Source: Planctomycetota bacterium
GTDB lineage: Bacteria; Planctomycetota; Phycisphaerae; UBA1845
DNA: 8,195 nucleotides
Direction of reading: 5' to 3'
Assembly (NCBI GenBank): GCA_022563055.1
Contig: JADFOB010000044.1
Span: 1 to 8,195, forward strand
This document shows positions 1-8,195 of the stretch, piece by piece (positions within the stretch are counted from its first letter, which is position 1; the number at the start of each line of letters is the position of its first letter). The translations under genes were made by a program, and so were the position numbers. The notes beneath the pieces are model-generated. The model saw only the letters and a list, made by a program, of their open reading frames with translations. It was not told the DNA's origin and made no database searches.

Positions 1-495
1 GGCTTCGCCCGTTCGCTGAAGCCACAAAGAGCCGGTTTCCTCATCGTACATGACCAGGTTGCCGTCCTGCACCTTGCCCGAGACGCGCATCGTGAACGTC
101 TTGTCCTTCACTCGTCGATCGTGAACCACGATCGTCTGTTCGCTCGGTCACCAGGACGCACTGACCGGTGTACCACCGACCACGTCGTTGACAATCTGGT
201 GATTGCTCAGAACGAACAAAGGATAGGCCCGGGCTTCTCCATTGATAAAAACACCGATGACCTTTGTTCCGGCGGCTAGGAGCACCTCGGACGGCGTAAG
301 TAAGGTCGGCTCAATGATCGCCTCCTTGGCGTCCTTGGCCCGATACTGAATCAGACCGTGGTAGGGCTCGCCACCCGTAGCCGTGCGCTTGCCCGACGAG
401 GATGCCTGGCCACCATTGGTTGATGACGACGGCGCGGCACAGCCCGAAACAACCAAACCAAGGAACGCTCCCAACGCGCAAAATCTTCTTATCAT
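1..495 (-). CDS. DUF3179 lipoprotein, probable selenoprotein (3' end beyond window)
   Basis: Seen: 165 codons from ATG at 495 to the window edge, with one in-frame TGA at codon 116. Residues 1-19 form a lipoprotein signal with lipobox VSGC, so Cys19 would be lipidated and the protein would be held at the membrane outside the cytoplasm. Residues 79-110 match the DUF3179 core (VIGVFINGEARAYPL, then HQIVNDVVGG). After the TGA the frame continues PSEQTIVVHDRRV, VSGKVQDG, NLVMYDEETGSLW, which is the next part of the same family. In Cys homologues the core reads PVAVTYCPLCGTAVAFDRR; here it is PVSASW-[TGA]-PSEQTIVVHDRR, with no gap, so TGA aligns with the first Cys. The start overlaps the upstream stop (ATGA), with AGGA 9 bases before the ATG (505-508). 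DUF3179 has no established biochemical role. Inference: Sec116 replaces the conserved Cys. Alternatives are a nonsense mutation or a sequencing error. The DUF3179 call is firm; the Sec call is probable. Confidence 0.85.
116..134 (-). promoter_or_regulatory. Candidate bacterial SECIS hairpin
   Basis: On the minus-strand mRNA, CGAUCGUG (134-127) pairs perfectly with CACGAUCG (123-116) around a GUU loop (126-124). The stem starts 13 bases after the UGA and the loop 21 bases after it. Bacterial SECIS elements, as in E. coli fdhF, are hairpins just downstream of UGA whose small apical loop has a G at its start, often followed by U, and which SelB binds. Stem length, loop size, loop bases and distance all fit. 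An A·A mismatch and one further G-C pair extend the base. The stem lies within coding sequence, as expected for bacteria. Function is inferred. Confidence 0.7.
148..150 (-). other. In-frame UGA, probable selenocysteine codon (Sec116)
   Basis: TGA on the minus strand inside the DUF3179 frame. It aligns with the conserved Cys of the family CPLC motif, ten residues before the conserved Asp-Arg pair, the same spacing as I recall for Cys homologues. TGA acts as a normal stop at the neighbouring genes (492-494 and 4694-4696) and Trp is encoded by TGG throughout, so a global TGA-to-Trp code is unlikely. A conventional gene caller would end the protein here and lose the second half of the domain. Confidence 0.75.
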
Positions 496-2219
496 GGCTT
501 CGTATCCTGCTCTTCGCTAATAACGATCGTTCGGTCGACATCCACGTTACCGAGTCGTTGGATGCGACCACAAGGCCAGCGTACCTGAACATCGACGCTA
601 CGCTTGGCGGAACCCAAGCCGAAATGCAGCGTCTTGGTGTGTCCGCTCAAATAGCTGCTACCGATGAACAGCTCCCGCATCTGCGGCGGTTCACCTTGTC
701 GGATTAGCGTGACACGGGCGTTGGCGGCGTCACGAGCACAATGCCGCCCCACGAGTTTCACCGCCAGCCAATGGCCCCCGCGTTTGGAAACATTCCGAAG
801 CAAGGCGGGCGGACCCCCGTGATTGTTAATCGCAATGTCCGGGCGACCGTCACGATCGAAGTCCGCCAGAGCTGCCCCGCGCCCGACATGCGTCTCACCG
901 AAGTAGCTCCCCGCGGCAGCCCCCAGCGCGTGCCAGCGCTTCTTACGCCACTCGTAGACCTCAGACCGCTGCGGAAGCATCTTGGGATTCTTGAGCACGT
1001 CGAGTGTCAGCTCGTCCTCGATCGTGCTGCCGTACGACACGAATAAATCTCGATCACCGTCGCTGTCGAAGTCCTCGAACCCAACGCCCCAACCGACCAG
1101 CGCCAAATCCGTCTTTCGCAGACCGTATGGAATCGCTTGATCTTCAAAGAAGAAGTCCCCGTCCCTGAGCTCGTTGACATAGAACCCTGGATCTTCCGAT
1201 ACCCAATGAGTTACCAGGAAGTCCTGGTCGCCGTCCGCGTCGACGTCAATCACCGCAACGCCCATCCCGCCGCGCGGGTCAAACACGCCCGCAGCAAGCC
1301 CAACATCCTCGAACGTCCCGTCTCCTTTGTTGCGAAAGAGGTTGTCAAGAGACTGGTCATTGGCCACGTACAGGTCGATCCACCCATCGTTGTCAAAGTC
1401 GCACCAAGTCGCCTGCATGCTGCGACCCTTGGCGGCGGCAGTGCCGCTTGTGGCTGTGACGTCCCGAAACGTGCCGTCGGCTTCCTGGTGAAACAGCATA
1501 TTGGCCAGGGGTGGGTAGCTGCTGGGCGTTGTCATCGGTGCCGGTCGCCCCGCAACGATTTCCCGATTCCGCGCCTTGTCGATGGGAAAATCAACGTAGC
1601 GGCAGAGGTAGAGGTCGAGTCGCCCGTCGCGATCGTAGTCACCCCAGGCGGCGCCCAGACAATAACCACTGACGCCGCCCAATCCCGCTTGTTTAGTAAT
1701 CTCCGAAAACCGCCCTGCGTCGTTTCGGAACAACCGCACGCCCGCAAGATTCGTCACCAGCAGATCGGCGTCTCCATCGTTGTCGAAGTCGGCAAAGAGC
1801 GCCGCCATGTCCATCCGCGACTCGCCGAGGCCGCTTGCCTCGGTTACGTCGGTGAACCGTCCGCCGCCGTCGTTTCGCCACAATCGGCTACCCGGAAATC
1901 CGCGACGCTTGTCGGCGTCCATCAGAAGTGGACCGTTCACGTTGCACAGATACAGGTCGTCATCGCCGTCCCCGTCGTAATCACCCCACGCACATCCCGA
2001 TCCGTTGTCTTCGGGCAGCAGCGACGCTCGCGGGTGGCCGTTGAAATGCACAAAACGCGGGAGGGATGAAACGGGGATACGCTCGAACCGGATCCCCGTC
2101 TCCTGGACCGATTGCTTCGATCCGCTTGTGGGAGAATCACCCACGACGTCGGCTGCGCCGGCCGCAAGGAGGCCGACCGTGATTAACACCGTCACAATGT
2201 GTTGGTAGTGGAAGTACAT
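492..2219 (-). CDS. Secreted CRTAC1-type protein: FG-GAP/VCBS repeats plus ASPIC/UnbV domain
   Basis: 575 residues from ATG at 2219. The open frame extends back to 2579, but the added 120 residues run through a non-coding repeat, whereas the ATG at 2219 begins a hydrophobic signal peptide (residues about 7-23, VTVLITVGLLAAGAA), so I chose it. Only a weak GGGGAA lies upstream. Seven calcium-loop repeats of DxDxDGxxD type are seen near residues 80, 144, 194, 274, 325, 383 and 453, each followed by a hydrophobic strand such as LYLCN or LFVSYG, as in FG-GAP/VCBS beta-propeller blades. Residues about 484-575 are an ASPIC/UnbV domain (ELFIGSSYLSGHTKTLHFGLG, then VQVRWPCGRIQRL). The family is exported and usually of unknown function; calcium binding is expected from the motif. 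The stop overlaps the DUF3179 start by ATGA, implying coupled expression with that protein. Family call is firm, role unknown. Confidence 0.93.
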   Translation of the reverse strand: MYFHYQHIVTVLITVGLLAAGAADVVGDSPTSGSKQSVQETGIRFERIPVSSLPRFVHFNGHPRASLLPEDNGSGCAWGDYDGDGDDDLYLCNVNGPLLMDADKRRGFPGSRLWRNDGGGRFTDVTEASGLGESRMDMAALFADFDNDGDADLLVTNLAGVRLFRNDAGRFSEITKQAGLGGVSGYCLGAAWGDYDRDGRLDLYLCRYVDFPIDKARNREIVAGRPAPMTTPSSYPPLANMLFHQEADGTFRDVTATSGTAAAKGRSMQATWCDFDNDGWIDLYVANDQSLDNLFRNKGDGTFEDVGLAAGVFDPRGGMGVAVIDVDADGDQDFLVTHWVSEDPGFYVNELRDGDFFFEDQAIPYGLRKTDLALVGWGVGFEDFDSDGDRDLFVSYGSTIEDELTLDVLKNPKMLPQRSEVYEWRKKRWHALGAAAGSYFGETHVGRGAALADFDRDGRPDIAINNHGGPPALLRNVSKRGGHWLAVKLVGRHCARDAANARVTLIRQGEPPQMRELFIGSSYLSGHTKTLHFGLGSAKRSVDVQVRWPCGRIQRLGNVDVDRTIVISEEQDTKP

Positions 2220-2515: not shown

Positions 2516-3976
2516 CTACTTGCCCCTGCGCGCACCTCGTAAGCTTGCCGGCGTGCGTCCGCCGGTCAGGACCACGCAATCGGAAGCCTCAAACGCAGTG
2601 CCATCCAGCAGCAATCCGTTGACGCTTAGCGTGACGGACACGCCGGCCCATAGAGAATCGAGTTCCAATACCTCGACCAGCTCGCGGGTGGAGAACTTGA
2701 GCGACAAATCGTCCATCCCGTCTCCACCGAGCGTATGACAATCGCAAAGCTCGCCGGCAAACAGGGTGGCGGTATCTTCGATGGTGACGCCCGGTCCGGG
2801 CGGACCCGAGAGTGGCGCCACAACACCTCCCACACCGTCGGCGCGCCGGAGCGTCAACGTACCGACGTCAATCTGCGTGACGTCGAACGAGTCGTCTCCG
2901 ACGATGGCCATGGGCACGACGCCTCGGCTGCGTGAGTTCACCGGATTCGGACAGGAACCCGGTTTAATGTCCAACGGCACTTCCTCAACTTCGTTCACCT
3001 CGCAGCGTATATGGTCGAGTTGGAAGAAGGCCGGTCCAGTAAAGTTCTCCGGCACCCACCATTCGAAACTGATACGAACATCCTCTCCCGCGAACGCACT
3101 CACATCCACCTCGCCCACAAGATCACCCGTATCAAACACGGTCGTCGGGGCTTGCGCTACCAGAAACAGTTGTGGCGCCTCCAACGGTGGACCCCCGCCG
3201 AACGGACGTATCACCACCTCAAACGTGCGATCCAACACGGCGCCAAAAGTCAGTCTCCAGGCCGCCCTGTAGTCAAAAAGGATGGCCTGCGCGCCCCTCG
3301 GAAGCATGACGTCTTGGGCGATCACAATCATTCCGGGGCCTGCGCCATCCCATCCGTGCAGCGCGGCCAGCGATCCGTCCGTCGGTTGGCTGGAAAAAAA
3401 ACCAAATCCCGGCGATTCTCCACTTCCACCCACGTGCAGCGTAAAGAAGGGCGTGGCCAGATCCTGCACAACCCAAGAAGAGAAGCTCCCCACCTCAAAG
3501 CTGTGGTTGGAAAGACACTCCCCGCCCACCGTTATCGGTTCGTCCAGCCACGGAATCGTTCGCTCGCTGATTTGTGCCGGATCTTGGTCACCGCTCTCCT
3601 CTAACCGGAGCTCTTCGGGCACCCCTGATTCCGTCGTCCTGGTGTAGGCGGTGGATGCCCTAATCGCCTCATACGCCCTACGGTCCCCGAGCGCCGGCGC
3701 CACCACAATGGACGCGCTTGGTGGCGGCTGGGAGATGGGGGAAGACCCATATGGTTCGAGTACTTGGGCGGATGCTTTTAGTTCTTCATAGCTTTTCGAA
3801 TCCCATTGAGGAGCGTTGAATGGTTGTACACTGGTGGACTCGTTGAGTTGCCCCGATGGGTCATCCGCTTGGGCGGCTGGCAAGATCAGACCGGTGCCCC
3901 CGAGCAACATCACCCCCGCCCCGATCCACGAGCATTTGATTCCGTGAGCGAAGTTAAGCGTCGCGTGATTCATCAT
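2516..3976 (-). CDS. Secreted protein of unknown function with C-terminal DIKPGSCPNP module
   Basis: 486 residues. ATG codons lie at 3976 and 3973; a strong AGGAGG (3982-3987) serves either, and I took the first. A signal peptide is visible (hydrophobic residues about 18-35, probable cleavage after AAQA at 34-37). Residues 38-148 are low-complexity, rich in Ser, Pro, Gln and Glu, probably a linker. Residues about 153-326 (NHSFEVGSFSSWVV ... FDYRAAWRLTFGA ... FFQLDHIRCEV) look like a beta-sandwich, carbohydrate-binding-like domain. Residues about 334-472 (LDIKPGSCPNPVN ... CDCHTLGGDGMDDLSLKFSTRELV ... SDCVVLTG) form a C-terminal module that I recall as recurring in secreted proteins of planctomycetes and similar bacteria. 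No catalytic residues or PEP-CTERM anchor are evident. It is separated by a repeat-bearing gap from both neighbours, so it is probably its own transcription unit. It is exported; function is unknown. Confidence 0.88.
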   Translation of the reverse strand: MMNHATLNFAHGIKCSWIGAGVMLLGGTGLILPAAQADDPSGQLNESTSVQPFNAPQWDSKSYEELKASAQVLEPYGSSPISQPPPSASIVVAPALGDRRAYEAIRASTAYTRTTESGVPEELRLEESGDQDPAQISERTIPWLDEPITVGGECLSNHSFEVGSFSSWVVQDLATPFFTLHVGGSGESPGFGFFSSQPTDGSLAALHGWDGAGPGMIVIAQDVMLPRGAQAILFDYRAAWRLTFGAVLDRTFEVVIRPFGGGPPLEAPQLFLVAQAPTTVFDTGDLVGEVDVSAFAGEDVRISFEWWVPENFTGPAFFQLDHIRCEVNEVEEVPLDIKPGSCPNPVNSRSRGVVPMAIVGDDSFDVTQIDVGTLTLRRADGVGGVVAPLSGPPGPGVTIEDTATLFAGELCDCHTLGGDGMDDLSLKFSTRELVEVLELDSLWAGVSVTLSVNGLLLDGTAFEASDCVVLTGGRTPASLRGARRGK

Positions 3977-4186: not shown

Positions 4187-4305
4187 GCGCGGGTGCCCAT
4201 TCTTCGCCCTCCGCGGGTGCCCCATCCTTGGGGTACTCCCCAAGGGTGGGGGATGGACTCGTCATGCGAACGCATCCCGACGTCGTGCGTCGTGACCGGA
4301 CCATC
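4187..4305 (+). repeat. Hairpin repeat unit 2
   Basis: A 14-bp stem, CCCCATCCTTGGGG (4220-4233) with CCCCAAGGGTGGGG (4238-4251, one G·T), closes a TACT loop. It is preceded by a partial copy (GGGTGCCCATTCTTCG, 4191-4206), as in unit 1. Positions 4255-4305 match unit 1 (2394-2444) at 48 of 51 bases. Same orientation as unit 1. Confidence 0.75.
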
Positions 4306-4336: not shown

Positions 4337-4448
4337 CGCCTACGCCAAACCGGACGAACACGACGCCCCGGACCGCATGTACCAGATCGAGAACGATCCA
4401 TCAAGGAAGTTGCGTCGGCGTGCTTTGCCCGACGATCGAGTGTACGCA

Positions 4449-4490
4449 GGTGCCCCATCCTTGGGTGCTCCCCAAGGGTGGGGGATGGAC
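4449..4490 (+). repeat. Hairpin repeat unit 3
   Basis: A 13-bp stem, CCCCATCCTTGGG (4453-4465) with CCCAAGGGTGGGG (4471-4483, one G·T), and a TGCTC loop. The flanks (GGTG before, GGATGGAC after) match unit 2, but the 51-bp tail is missing, so this is a shorter member of the same family. Confidence 0.7.
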
Positions 4491-4564
4491 TTGGGTGCAA
4501 GGGCGCGGGACGGACCTTGAGGCGAAGGGCATTTGCAGGTGTCAGTGTCATCCCGTGGTTCATC

Positions 4565-4604
4565 CGTCCCCCACCCTTCGCAAAAGGCGAAGGATGGGGC
4601 ACCC
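4565..4604 (-). repeat. Hairpin repeat unit 4, inverted
   Basis: A 13-bp stem, CCCCACCCTTCGC (4569-4581) with GCGAAGGATGGGG (4587-4599, one G·T), around AAAAG. Read on the minus strand it begins GGGTGCCCCATCCTTCGCC, as in unit 1. Together with the 27-bp palindrome at 4644-4670 it mirrors the arrangement at 2262-2400. Confidence 0.7.
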
Positions 4605-4643
4605 GGGCAAGGATGCGGCACTCGCCGTGAGCCAACGACGTAC

Positions 4644-4670
4644 TACGGCCGCCACGGGTGGCGGCCGCTA
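4644..4670. repeat. 27-bp G+C-rich palindromic repeat, copy 2
   Basis: Reverse complement of copy 1 (2262-2288) at 25 of 27 positions. The GGCCGCCAC-GGGTG-GCGGCC core is strongly self-complementary. It begins 23 bases after the stop of the P-type ATPase gene, so its hairpin may shape the 3' end of that transcript, but no U tract follows. Confidence 0.7.
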
Positions 4671-4693
4671 CACAAGAACGAACTCTGCTCTAG

Positions 4694-6694
4694 TCAAGTT
4701 GCCGGTGCGGTTTGGGCGGGGATGGGGGTGGTGTAGCCGTCGGCGGCGTCGGCGTGCTCCTCGCCGAAGCGGACGAGGCGGGCGCTGTTGAAGATGACGA
4801 CGGCTGTGGCGACGGTGTGAGCCATGGCGGCGACGATGGGGCTCAGCGGACCCCAGATCGCCAGCGTCATCATCACCACGATGAACCCGACGCCGAACAG
4901 GATGTTCTGCCACACGACGCGCGTCGTCCCCCGCGAGAGACGAATCAGGAACGGAAGCCGCCTTAGATCGTTGCTCATCAGAGCGATCGAGGCGGAGTTG
5001 ATGGCCACGTCGCTACCGGCTACCCCCATGGCGATACCCAGATCGCTGGCGGCCAGCATCGGCGCGTCGTTGACGCCGTCGCCGACGACGGCTACGCGGT
5101 GGCCCCGGCGTTTGAGTTCGTCGACGAGCTTGAGCTTCTCGTGGGGCAACACCTCGGCGTGAACCTCGGTGCAACCCATCTCCGCTCCGACACGCCGCGC
5201 GACCGACCACTTGTCGCCCGTCACCATCGAAAGGTGGTGGATATTAAGCTCTCTGAGTTCATCGATGGCTTCGCGGGCTTCACTCCGCGTGCGATCTTCC
5301 AGGCCGATCCAGCCGAGGCATTGCTTGTTGCGTGAGACGTAGAGCAGGCTGACGCCCTCGGGTTCCGCGTAGTCGGGGTTCTTGGTCAGGCTGACGTCCG
5401 CTCCCTCATCGCTGAGCCACTTCAACCGCCCGACCAAGACATCATTCTCGCCAACCTGGCCGCTCACACCGCGCCCGGCGGTCTCCTTGAACGCCGCAGG
5501 TTGCGTGAGTTTGATCTTCGCCTGCTTGGCAACCTGAACGACGGCCAAAGCGGCTGGGTGCTTGCTCATCTGTTCGACGGAAGCGGCTGCATGAAGGAGG
5601 TCAGCCCCTTCGATGCCTGGTGCGGGCTTGAGCTGCGTGACCGAGAGTTCCCCGGTGGTGAGCGTGCCGGTCTTGTCGAACACGACGGCTGTCAGCGTCC
5701 GGGCAAACTCCAGTTGCACGACGTTCTTGATCAGGATTCCCAGTCGAGCGGCGCAGCTCAGTGCCGCCACCATGGCAGTCGGTGTGGCCAGCACCAACGC
5801 GCACGGGCAGGCGATGATGAGCATCGTGATGGCCTTTTGCACACCCTCGTCCTTGTTCTGAGAGAAGAACCAGACGACGGCTGCCAACATGCAGATCGTC
5901 GGCGTATACCACCCGGCGTAGCGGTCGATCAGGCGCATGAGCGGCGTGCGCGTACTCTCGGCATCGAGAATGAGTTGCTGCACGCGCCCGAGCGTTGTAT
6001 CGGCACCGGCTTTGGTGACTCGAACGTCGAGCGCACCGGTCAGGTTGCTCGTGCCGCTGAAGACCTCATCCCCCTCGCCCTTGTCGATTGGAAGGGATTC
6101 GCCGGTGATGTTGGCCTGGTTGACCGTCGAAGTGCCGGTCACGACTTCGCCATCGGCTGGAATGTTGTCCCCAGGACGAATGCGGATCAGCTCGCCGGGG
6201 TGCAGCGCCTTGGCGTCAACCACTTCCTCTGTGCCGTCGGGTAGAAGGCGGTGGGCTTGATCCGGTGTCAGGCGGAGGAGTGATTCGATCGACGCCCGCG
6301 CGCCCAGCGCCGTTCGCGTTTCGATCAGGTTCGAGAGGATCATGAAGAACGCGATGATCCCGGCTTCTTGGTACTCACCCAGTGCGATGGCGGCGACGAC
6401 TGCCAGCGCTACGAGCTCTTCCATGTGGGCTTGGCTGGAGAGCAGTCCCTTGATTCCATGCCAGACCAGCGGGGCACCCAGGAGGAGCGCACCGGCGAGC
6501 GCCAACACCTGGGAGTAGGGCGTCTGAGCGCCACCACCACCCGCGACCTCGTACTGAAAGAGCGTCCGCGCGACGATCGGGAAATCGACGACGAACGAGC
6601 TGACAACCAACATGCCTCCCATCAGCGTGCCGATGAGCAGACCGGTGGCCTTTGCGGTTTCCGCCTCAATATCGTGCAGGTGTGCGTGCGCCAT
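4694..6694 (-). CDS. P1B-type heavy-metal translocating P-type ATPase
   Basis: 666 residues, inner membrane. ATP-driven export of a transition-metal ion is expected from the family. Eight hydrophobic segments fit the P1B topology (about 18-36, 62-78, 92-106, 110-122, 263-277, 290-310, 592-612, 615-636). Motifs: actuator-domain TGES (197-200), metal-site CPC in TM6 (296-298), phosphorylation DKTGTLT with Asp340, the P1B HP pair (379-380), and hinge GDGVNDAP (538-545). There is no N-terminal HMA or CxxC metal-binding domain; only a short His-rich start (AHAHLH). The Lys of TM7 and Asp of TM8 typical of Zn/Cd/Pb pumps are absent: TM7 reads QNILFGVGFI and TM8 reads AMAHTVATAVV, with His626 at the Asp position. 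The substrate is therefore uncertain (Zn/Cd/Co-like or Cu-like). No metal regulator or chaperone gene is adjacent. The Shine-Dalgarno is weak; an in-frame upstream ATG is closed by TAA. Confidence 0.95.
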   Translation of the reverse strand: MAHAHLHDIEAETAKATGLLIGTLMGGMLVVSSFVVDFPIVARTLFQYEVAGGGGAQTPYSQVLALAGALLLGAPLVWHGIKGLLSSQAHMEELVALAVVAAIALGEYQEAGIIAFFMILSNLIETRTALGARASIESLLRLTPDQAHRLLPDGTEEVVDAKALHPGELIRIRPGDNIPADGEVVTGTSTVNQANITGESLPIDKGEGDEVFSGTSNLTGALDVRVTKAGADTTLGRVQQLILDAESTRTPLMRLIDRYAGWYTPTICMLAAVVWFFSQNKDEGVQKAITMLIIACPCALVLATPTAMVAALSCAARLGILIKNVVQLEFARTLTAVVFDKTGTLTTGELSVTQLKPAPGIEGADLLHAAASVEQMSKHPAALAVVQVAKQAKIKLTQPAAFKETAGRGVSGQVGENDVLVGRLKWLSDEGADVSLTKNPDYAEPEGVSLLYVSRNKQCLGWIGLEDRTRSEAREAIDELRELNIHHLSMVTGDKWSVARRVGAEMGCTEVHAEVLPHEKLKLVDELKRRGHRVAVVGDGVNDAPMLAASDLGIAMGVAGSDVAINSASIALMSNDLRRLPFLIRLSRGTTRVVWQNILFGVGFIVVMMTLAIWGPLSPIVAAMAHTVATAVVIFNSARLVRFGEEHADAADGYTTPIPAQTAPAT

Positions 6695-7005: not shown

Positions 7006-8195
7006 CTACGATCCGCCTCCGCCGCCGCGGTTACTACCGAAGTTGTTCCCGTAGACGACGTAGGCGTCCCCGGCGTCGCGCCGGCGCCCCAGTTCCGCAT
7101 CGGTCGCGGCGGGCCCCTGCGGGAAGCTGAAGTCGATGAAATCCGCTTTGGGGTTGCCGATCGCGATATCTCCAAACCCGTCGCGGTTGATGTCCCCAAG
7201 GAATGCGACCGTGAGCGGGGCGGCCTCGTTGGGGCGACCCTTGAGATAGGGGCTTAGGAACACGATTCCGGGAAGATCATCCGTTCCAACCCGTTCCAGA
7301 CTCCAAGTGGTGTTGTGGAGGTGGGTTCCGCCGAAGATCAGGTAGACGACACCCAGTCGCTCACGCCCCGCCCGATCGATCCGTGTTTCACCCGGAACGG
7401 CAATCAGGATGTCTCCAAACCCATCCTGGTTAAAGTCGCCCGCCGAGCTGACGTCATAGCCCGCACGATCCCCGGTGCTTGCGCCGTGGAAGATCACGCC
7501 GGGCAAATCGGGCGTGGCAATCTGAGAGAGGACGCGGTCGCCGTCGGTGAACACGCCGCCGAAAATGATCCCCACAAAGCCGTTGTCGATCAGATGGTCA
7601 CAGCAGTCGTCTCCGCCGTTGACGAGGCAGGTAAAGACCGCGTTGTCGTCGTCTTCGATGTCACCATCGTTGTCATAATCAAAGATCTTGCACCGGTCGT
7701 CCGAGAAAACCTCCTCGCCGAAATTCGCCTTGCACTCGGCGAAGCCCGATGTGTCAAGGTCGGAAGAATCGATCTGGCCGTCTCCATTGAAATCGCCGGC
7801 ACACGTCGAACGCGTGACATTCCCGAAGTCCGCGCGGGGAGAGGAGATGAAGACATCGTCGATTCGGTCACCGTTCACGTCGAGCCCTGTGGCCTGACGC
7901 CATCCGATTTGATCCTCTCTCGTCTCACCACGGATTCGAAGCATCGGGGCGCGCAAACGCGGATCATCGGCTTTCTTCAGGTCGAAATCGCCAAGAATAC
8001 TCCGGCCGTAGAGGATGTAAACGGCTCCCGAATTCTCGAGCGCCGAGCCAAAGTCATTGAGCGGCGCGCCGCAGAGGATGTCATCCAGACCATCCTGATT
8101 GAAGTCGCCGGCGGACCGGGCGCCACCAAGAAAGTCATCCTTGTCCTCGGCGAACACCTGGAACACATCGGGGGGGCCGAACAGCCCGCGGTCGC
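7006..8195 (-). CDS. FG-GAP repeat protein with dockerin-like insertion (5' end beyond window)
   Basis: The frame is open to the window edge, so this is a 3' fragment of about 396 codons ending in TAG at 7006-7008. A GTG at 8166 could be read as a start, but coding sequence continues in frame upstream (DRGLFGPPD), so it is not a credible one. Numbering from that GTG, FG-GAP blades are seen at about 12-53 (GDFNQDGLDDILCGAP), 86-113 (LDVNGDRIDDVFISSP), 235-279 (GDFNQDGFGDILIAVP) and 316-377 (GDINRDGFGDIAIGNP), with calcium-type loops as in the integrin alpha-chain propeller. Between the second and third, residues about 122-189 hold two dockerin-like loops (DFNGDGQIDSSD at 125, DYDNDGDIEDDD at 163) and six Cys. 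The end is RGGGGGS with no membrane anchor or PEP-CTERM motif. It is probably exported; ligand and role are unknown. Confidence 0.9.
   Translation of the reverse strand, partial: DRGLFGPPDVFQVFAEDKDDFLGGARSAGDFNQDGLDDILCGAPLNDFGSALENSGAVYILYGRSILGDFDLKKADDPRLRAPMLRIRGETREDQIGWRQATGLDVNGDRIDDVFISSPRADFGNVTRSTCAGDFNGDGQIDSSDLDTSGFAECKANFGEEVFSDDRCKIFDYDNDGDIEDDDNAVFTCLVNGGDDCCDHLIDNGFVGIIFGGVFTDGDRVLSQIATPDLPGVIFHGASTGDRAGYDVSSAGDFNQDGFGDILIAVPGETRIDRAGRERLGVVYLIFGGTHLHNTTWSLERVGTDDLPGIVFLSPYLKGRPNEAAPLTVAFLGDINRDGFGDIAIGNPKADFIDFSFPQGPAATDAELGRRRDAGDAYVVYGNNFGSNRGGGGGS

Follow-up and report, generated by a model that had tools for sequence, protein, structure and literature searches.

An in-frame TGA at positions 148 to 150 (minus strand) of the window, the 8,195-nucleotide stretch of planctomycete DNA analyzed here, is very likely decoded as selenocysteine (Sec) through the SelB/tRNA-Sec route, with a probability of about 0.92 judged from sequence comparison. 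The codon falls at residue 116 of a DUF3179 gene (positions 1 to 495, minus strand) that comprises 165 codons when read through the TGA. This reading, which had been put forward in a preliminary description of the same DNA, is upheld by the recurrence of the TGA at one alignment column in the window's own branch of the family, by the presence of cysteine at that column in other relatives, by a conserved bSECIS-type hairpin downstream of the codon, and by the Sec machinery found in the genomes of relatives. An in-frame UGA aligned with the cysteine of homologues and flanked by conserved sequence on both sides, the pattern by which bacterial selenoproteins are recognized, is thus what was found.

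The conventional open reading frame at positions 148 to 495 (minus strand) encodes 115 residues ending in GGTPVSASW (the full string ends in NHQIVNDVVGGTPVSASW) and is followed directly by the TGA, after which 49 further in-frame codons (PSEQTIVVHDRRVKDKTFTMRVSGKVQDGNLVMYDEETGSLWLQRTGEA) reach the edge of the window; because the gene runs past this edge, the C-terminus of the protein lies outside the window. The read-through protein matches the Pfam family PF11376 (DUF3179) with 102.4 bits over residues 59 to 165 at a cut-off of 27, whereas the upstream half alone scores 43.9 bits (profile positions 6–62) and the downstream half 40.4 bits (profile positions 69–114), so that the two halves cover adjoining stretches of the profile, each above the cut-off. 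The full-length relative L001 scores 129.9 bits and is a member of DUF3179 at the same cut-off. In the window motif W-U-P-S-E-Q, the TGA occupies the place of the first cysteine of the CPLC motif of the Cys homologues, and the position of the second cysteine is taken by glutamate. The preliminary description had placed the TGA on that first cysteine and had followed the DUF3179 frame for 49 codons beyond it, and it was correct in its coordinates and alignment as well as in the continuation of the frame.

A homologue search with the read-through protein had been proposed as a check, and it found TGA or cysteine aligned at this column in relatives. Among 5.8 billion proteins there were 126 matches, the best 120 of which were listed; 105 of these 120 are cut at the UGA, stopping at the identical tryptophan (...A[ST]W), whereas a further 5 consist of the downstream half and start with MVHDRR. 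A stop point shared in this way by homologues, together with matching downstream halves, is more than chance would produce. No full-length Cys form of the branch occurred among the 120 protein matches listed. Genome contigs yielded six loci that encode a relative, each with TGA at the column: three come from contigs titled Planctomycetota or Phycisphaerae and three from contigs titled Acidobacteria, Acidobacteriota, or Thermoanaerobaculia. Five more came from two wider genome searches (genomes G438, G459, and G460 in one search, G695 and G721 in the other), giving a branch, here termed S1, of 12 loci from Planctomycetota and Acidobacteriota (the window, L001–L006, L154–L156, L175, and L176) with the sequence pattern WU[PAS]SEQ..VHDRR. 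The TGA stands at the column in 12/12 of these loci, as does glutamate at position +3 (UxxE). S1 forms a single clade with an SH-aLRT value of 99 in a 140-row tree built with the Sec column masked, a tree made by a quick method from only 104 columns in which many forks are unresolved.

Two further groups of TGA-containing rows were distinguished: S2, a mixed set of mainly long acidobacterial proteins (WUPLANTAVVYDR, WUPLAHTG, WUPLCHTG, YUTLCHTG), and S3, a Phycisphaerae type with the pattern VTVGWUPLxxLSVVxGR. From 162 aligned rows, 16 were dropped for a gap at the Sec column, and the unique rows after removal of duplicates numbered 10 for S1, 38 for S2, 38 for S3, 16 with cysteine at the Sec column, 20 with serine, asparagine, or aspartate, and 23 others, the last being second domains or poor alignments that were kept separate from the Cys and Ser/Asn/Asp controls; as rows were selected by the presence or absence of TGA, these counts are not prevalences. 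A further 20 loci added second domains, 5 Cys rows, and 15 Sec rows, one of which duplicates L004. The five Cys rows, WCPLA[ND]LAV[VAI]Y, are the tree sisters of the Sec row WUPLANLAVVY (L177), and this is a direct exchange between predicted Sec and Cys. A UxxC motif is present in 8/38 S2 rows and also in Sec rows of the further 20-locus set. More broadly, DUF3179 genes with one in-frame TGA were seen in many Planctomycetota and Acidobacteriota genomes, at times several per genome, and some of them encode two domains with the TGA in the first only. One DUF3179 group carries serine, asparagine, or aspartate in the Cys column (TYSPLCDSAVVFDRR, TYNPLCDS, TYDPLCDS; L037, L038, L042, L044, L046, L048–L052, L055, L056, L060–L063, and others), and the second cysteine is kept in 16/20 of its unique rows.

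The bSECIS-type hairpin of the window, CGAUCGUG-GUU-CACGAUCG, lies at positions 116 to 134 (minus strand), with its loop at 124–126, 21 nt after the UGA. Its stem of 8 bp and its GUU loop have a predicted stability of −9.6 kcal/mol (z −3.47 relative to shuffled sequences); the full 56 nt from the UGA onward fold no more stably than shuffled sequences do (z −0.55). According to the accessible text of PMC13188914, a bSECIS element has a stem of 4–16 bp, a loop of 3–9 nt, a spacing of 16–37 nt after the UGA, a G within the first two loop positions, and a minimum free energy of −7.5 kcal/mol or lower, and the window hairpin falls within these published constraints.

A best stem with 6 bp or more whose loop begins 20 or 21 nt past the codon was found in 10/10 S1, 38/38 S3, and 21/38 S2 rows, the other 17 S2 rows having no stem at this place; L175 and L176, each with an 8-bp stem at 21 nt, bring S1 to 12/12 loci. 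The same stem was found in 0/20 Ser/Asn/Asp and 2/23 other rows, and its absence from all 16 Cys rows is one respect in which Cys-type genes differ from S1. A stem of at least 6 bp anywhere between 16 and 30 nt was present in 30/38 S2, 5/16 Cys, 9/20 Ser/Asn/Asp, and 8/23 other rows. Compared with synonymous-codon shuffles, p values of 0.05 or lower were obtained for 28/38 S3, 9/38 S2, and 3/10 S1 rows, and for 2/23 other, 0/16 Cys, and 0/20 Ser/Asn/Asp rows; the remaining S1 hairpins gave p values of 0.07–0.17, because the S1 peptide itself favours a palindrome. Across the Sec rows, 629/774 cells at stem positions are paired, compared with 162–333/774 when the positions are slid by one or two, and the corresponding controls are 67/144 for Cys and 78/180 for Ser/Asn/Asp rows. 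Compensating changes on both sides of the stem occur at +16/+30, +17/+29, and +18/+28, and L175/L176 carry an additional one, CGGUCAUG...CAUGACCG. An apparent both-side change at +19/+27 was discounted, as it came from four S2 rows that have their best stem at another place. Among the five Cys sisters of L177, four have no stem over 4 bp and one (L182) retains a 10-bp stem.

The genes for Sec synthesis and insertion were counted in the genomes of relatives, for which assembly completeness was not given; scanning the window itself for tRNA genes and Rfam families returned nothing, as expected for 8 kb. A tRNA-Sec scoring 69–74 bits, which ARAGORN also reads as tRNA-Sec with the anticodon tca, is present in 10 of the 11 other S1 genomes, only ARAGORN-confirmed genes being counted because the Rfam model also passes its cut-off on a tRNA-Ser (L014). 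selA was found above the cut-off in 9/11 S1 genomes; G002 showed only a sub-threshold piece of selA and no tRNA-Sec match above the gathering score, and G004 gave no selA match. In the six genomes of L001–L006, selB was above the cut-off in three, with none in G004 or G005, and selD was found in five, four of these selD genes (L028–L031) themselves containing one in-frame TGA. By inference, Sec is also made in the cell to which the window belongs.

A wider comparison covered the class of G001, the genome of L001 (titled Phycisphaerae), in which 130 of 397 genomes have a DUF3179 match and 152 a selA match. selA is present in 29/30 genomes with a TGA-DUF3179 row versus 23/94 with DUF3179 and no listed TGA row (Fisher p 5e-13, uncorrected for kinship), a contrast from which six genomes without listed rows were dropped and in which "no TGA row" means none among the matches listed, so that weak TGA rows were possibly missed. 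The one genome with a TGA-DUF3179 row and no selA is G340. The acidobacterial class of G003 offers no such contrast because selA is nearly universal there (139/148 genomes); G444 and G453 of this class have TGA-DUF3179 rows and no selA match.

If the TGA were instead a real stop, the gene would encode a truncated protein of 115 residues, or be a pseudogene or the result of a sequencing error, and the downstream frame would be a relic. The database proteins do end at the TGA in the proportion given above, but the frame beyond it is under selection, with dN/dS values of 0.16, 0.36, 0.25, and 0.25 in those four of six comparisons that are free of saturation, and the TGA recurs at a single column throughout S1 in different assemblies. 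Moreover, the only other stops among the matches listed are one TAA (G425), located in a second domain whose row comes after a TGA row from the same region of the frame, and one TAG (G695, L176) at which the gene itself terminates, with the limit that the cutting of open reading frames for the read loci could not reveal TAA or TAG. A genuine stop is accordingly very improbable. A genome in which TGA is a standard amino acid codon, such as one for Trp or Gly, or leaky near-cognate read-through, would need no more than a frame open through the TGA, as is seen here; against this, TGA terminates the window's P-type ATPase gene and its upstream FG-GAP/UnbV_ASPIC gene, the latter in an ATGA overlap with the DUF3179 start at positions 492 to 495 (minus strand), and likewise 4 of the 10 S1 genes that were read to their own end. 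Since TGA serves as a stop elsewhere in the window and in S1 genes, the read-through is local to the DUF3179 site, and general recoding or leakiness, which also leaves aside the cysteine at the column in relatives and the presence of the hairpin and tRNA-Sec, is most unlikely. Selenocysteine is thus the preferred reading of the codon.

The suggestion in the preliminary description that this may be an undescribed selenoprotein family does not hold, as DUF3179 (pfam11376), with the motif UxxC/T, already appears in the selenoprotein tables of PMC9312934 and PMC13188914 as far as their accessible text goes, and the former cites Zhang and Gladyshev 2007 (Olavius algarvensis symbiont) for the DUF3179 selenoprotein. 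The published DUF3179 selenoproteins in these two sources resemble S1 in having the same Pfam domain and Sec at the first CPLC position. S1 differs from them in that it has UxxE in place of the published UxxC/T in 12/12 loci, is shorter, ends in a CxHC motif, and has an FG-GAP/UnbV_ASPIC gene as its neighbour, and the accessible tables list no such branch. Neither PMC9312934 nor PMC13188914 contains the term "planctomycet" in its main text, and "acidobacteri" is likewise missing from that of the 2026 review. DUF3179 turned up in one further paper of the literature searched, there only in a gene table, and no description of the UxxE branch, the CxHC end, or the FG-GAP neighbour was found in the literature searched, a search outside which most subscription papers fall. 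DUF3179 as a selenoprotein family is therefore already known, and what looks new seems confined to the features of the S1 branch.

The NCBI name "DUF3179 domain-containing (seleno)protein," carried by Haloarcula marina plasmid proteins, suggests that the family is treated there as having Sec members; the H. marina protein shares the domain and is encoded in one 1,425-base frame, with 40% identity over residues 70–163. The Cys-type DUF3179 proteins (YCPLC, YCTLC) align with S1 across the Sec site and have cysteine in the Sec column, but they differ in carrying a second cysteine at +3 in 15/16 unique rows and in extending further on the C-terminal side (median 237 residues, against 109). NCBIfam has no family for the S1 protein, and the single bacteriocin match to its downstream half alone stayed below threshold. 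DUF3179 is a family of unknown function; within its S1 branch, no Cys form was found.

The N-terminus of the window protein (positions 439 to 495, minus strand) has the appearance, judged by eye, of a signal peptide with a lipobox-like ...VSGC, predicting Cys19 as the lipoprotein anchor. Of 22 aligned rows, at least 90% have Cys19, and the acidobacterial L005 and L006 have no lipobox-like VSGC. The protein is therefore probably exported and anchored in the envelope as a lipoprotein. Near the C-terminus, all 11 S1 loci long enough to include this part carry a CxHC motif, which is absent from every S2, S3, Cys, and Ser/Asn/Asp row, a distribution that fits a branch-specific partner of the Sec residue; the chance that this cysteine pair serves as the resolving partner of Sec may be put at about even.

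Directly upstream of the DUF3179 gene (positions 492 to 2219, minus strand) lies a gene for a 575-residue protein with FG-GAP repeats and an UnbV_ASPIC domain (PF13517, 150.8 bits; PF07593, 60.9 bits). Such a gene is located directly upstream of S1 in 12/12 loci, overlapping it or a few dozen bases away, and its identity was confirmed by Pfam for 7/7 tested upstream genes. None adjoins DUF3179 in 17 S2 and S3 loci searched by tblastn at E 1e-8, some of which are short; L173 has a distant FG-GAP/UnbV_ASPIC gene about 2.5 kb from its DUF3179 gene. A gene for a TlpA/ResA-like thioredoxin comes immediately downstream in 5/6 of the acidobacterial S1 loci, the sixth locus ending at the contig edge, and none was found in the available flanks of the planctomycete L001, L002, L004, L175, and L176. 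Secreted thioredoxins of the TlpA/ResA/DsbE type are proteins separate from S1 and could act as its electron donor.

In the proposed mechanism, SelB would insert Sec at residue 116, guided by the predicted signal, the hairpin 21 nt downstream, and the product would be an envelope-anchored DUF3179 lipoprotein in which Sec is the attacking redox residue. Sec116 would attack the substrate, a peroxide or a disulfide, and the resulting selenenyl intermediate would be resolved by the C-terminal CxHC pair, which is proposed for this step because the motif's usual second cysteine is glutamate in S1. The TlpA/ResA-like thioredoxin encoded directly downstream in the acidobacterial loci would then recharge the enzyme, and the role proposed for the FG-GAP/UnbV_ASPIC partner is to hold the enzyme or its substrate, or to present it. 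The protein may thus function as a secreted selenol–thiol oxidoreductase, with the roles of CxHC, TlpA, and FG-GAP suggested by conservation and gene order. That S1 forms a dedicated, Sec-only envelope selenoenzyme module, in which Sec works with CxHC after loss of the second cysteine, an FG-GAP/UnbV_ASPIC beta-propeller provides positioning, and a TlpA-type protein recharges the enzyme, is put forward only tentatively, and it is similarly doubtful that one such module would be common to Planctomycetota and Acidobacteriota with the FG-GAP/UnbV_ASPIC protein always co-made. The fixed partner gene and the fixed C-terminal cysteine pair may hint at the location of the active site, and S1 with its neighbour constitutes a two-gene unit for expression and assay.

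Alternatively, Sec could be a lone nucleophile or a metal ligand, with CxHC forming a separate site, for example for zinc. A cysteine anywhere after the UGA occurs in only 9/38 S2 and 2/38 S3 Sec forms, and the nearest solved folds of the predicted model (AF2, pLDDT 84.7, mainly beta) are Rieske proteins, which are metal binders; no thioredoxin fold was among the structural matches listed for the model. However, the restriction of CxHC to S1, where it is invariant in the loci that reach the end, fits a branch-specific link with its Sec; the Foldseek E-values are 0.03 or worse. The ligands of a Rieske [2Fe–2S] cluster lie in the motifs C-x-H ... C-x2-H, and this pair is absent from the sequence as read from the alignment; Sec lies off the Rieske ligand positions, judged by aligned ranges only. 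Kinship of the modelled DUF3179 domain with Rieske proteins is accordingly no more than a lead, and a lone or metal-binding Sec remains rather unlikely. As for the resolving role of CxHC, it keeps the even standing given above. A likeness of S1 to B-type lectins, which emerged from a PDB sequence search with the S1 profile, comprised short matches only (best E 0.009, DGNLVMYD) and was set aside as a shared short motif.

Elsewhere in the window, a 486-residue protein without a Pfam match is encoded at positions 2516–3976 (minus strand), with the gene pair on one side and a repeat block on the other. Dispersed intergenic repeats occur at 2260–2444, 4207–4305, 4445–4484, and 4563–4672, and resemble mobile or REP-type palindromes. 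Among them are a direct repeat of 64 nt (94%), repeats of 40 nt having inverted copies around a CCCCATCCTT...AAGGGTGGGG core, and an inverted pair of 37 nt around CGGCCGCCACGGGTGGCGGCCG. The P-type ATPase at positions 4694–6694 (minus strand; E1-E2 ATPase, of the heavy-metal type by eye) begins with the His-containing MAHAHLHD, and the Pfam scan returned no separate metal-binding domain for it. At positions 7006–8193 (minus strand), a second FG-GAP protein is encoded, for which Pfam reports FG-GAP only and in which an inserted dockerin-like D-G stretch is recognizable by eye.
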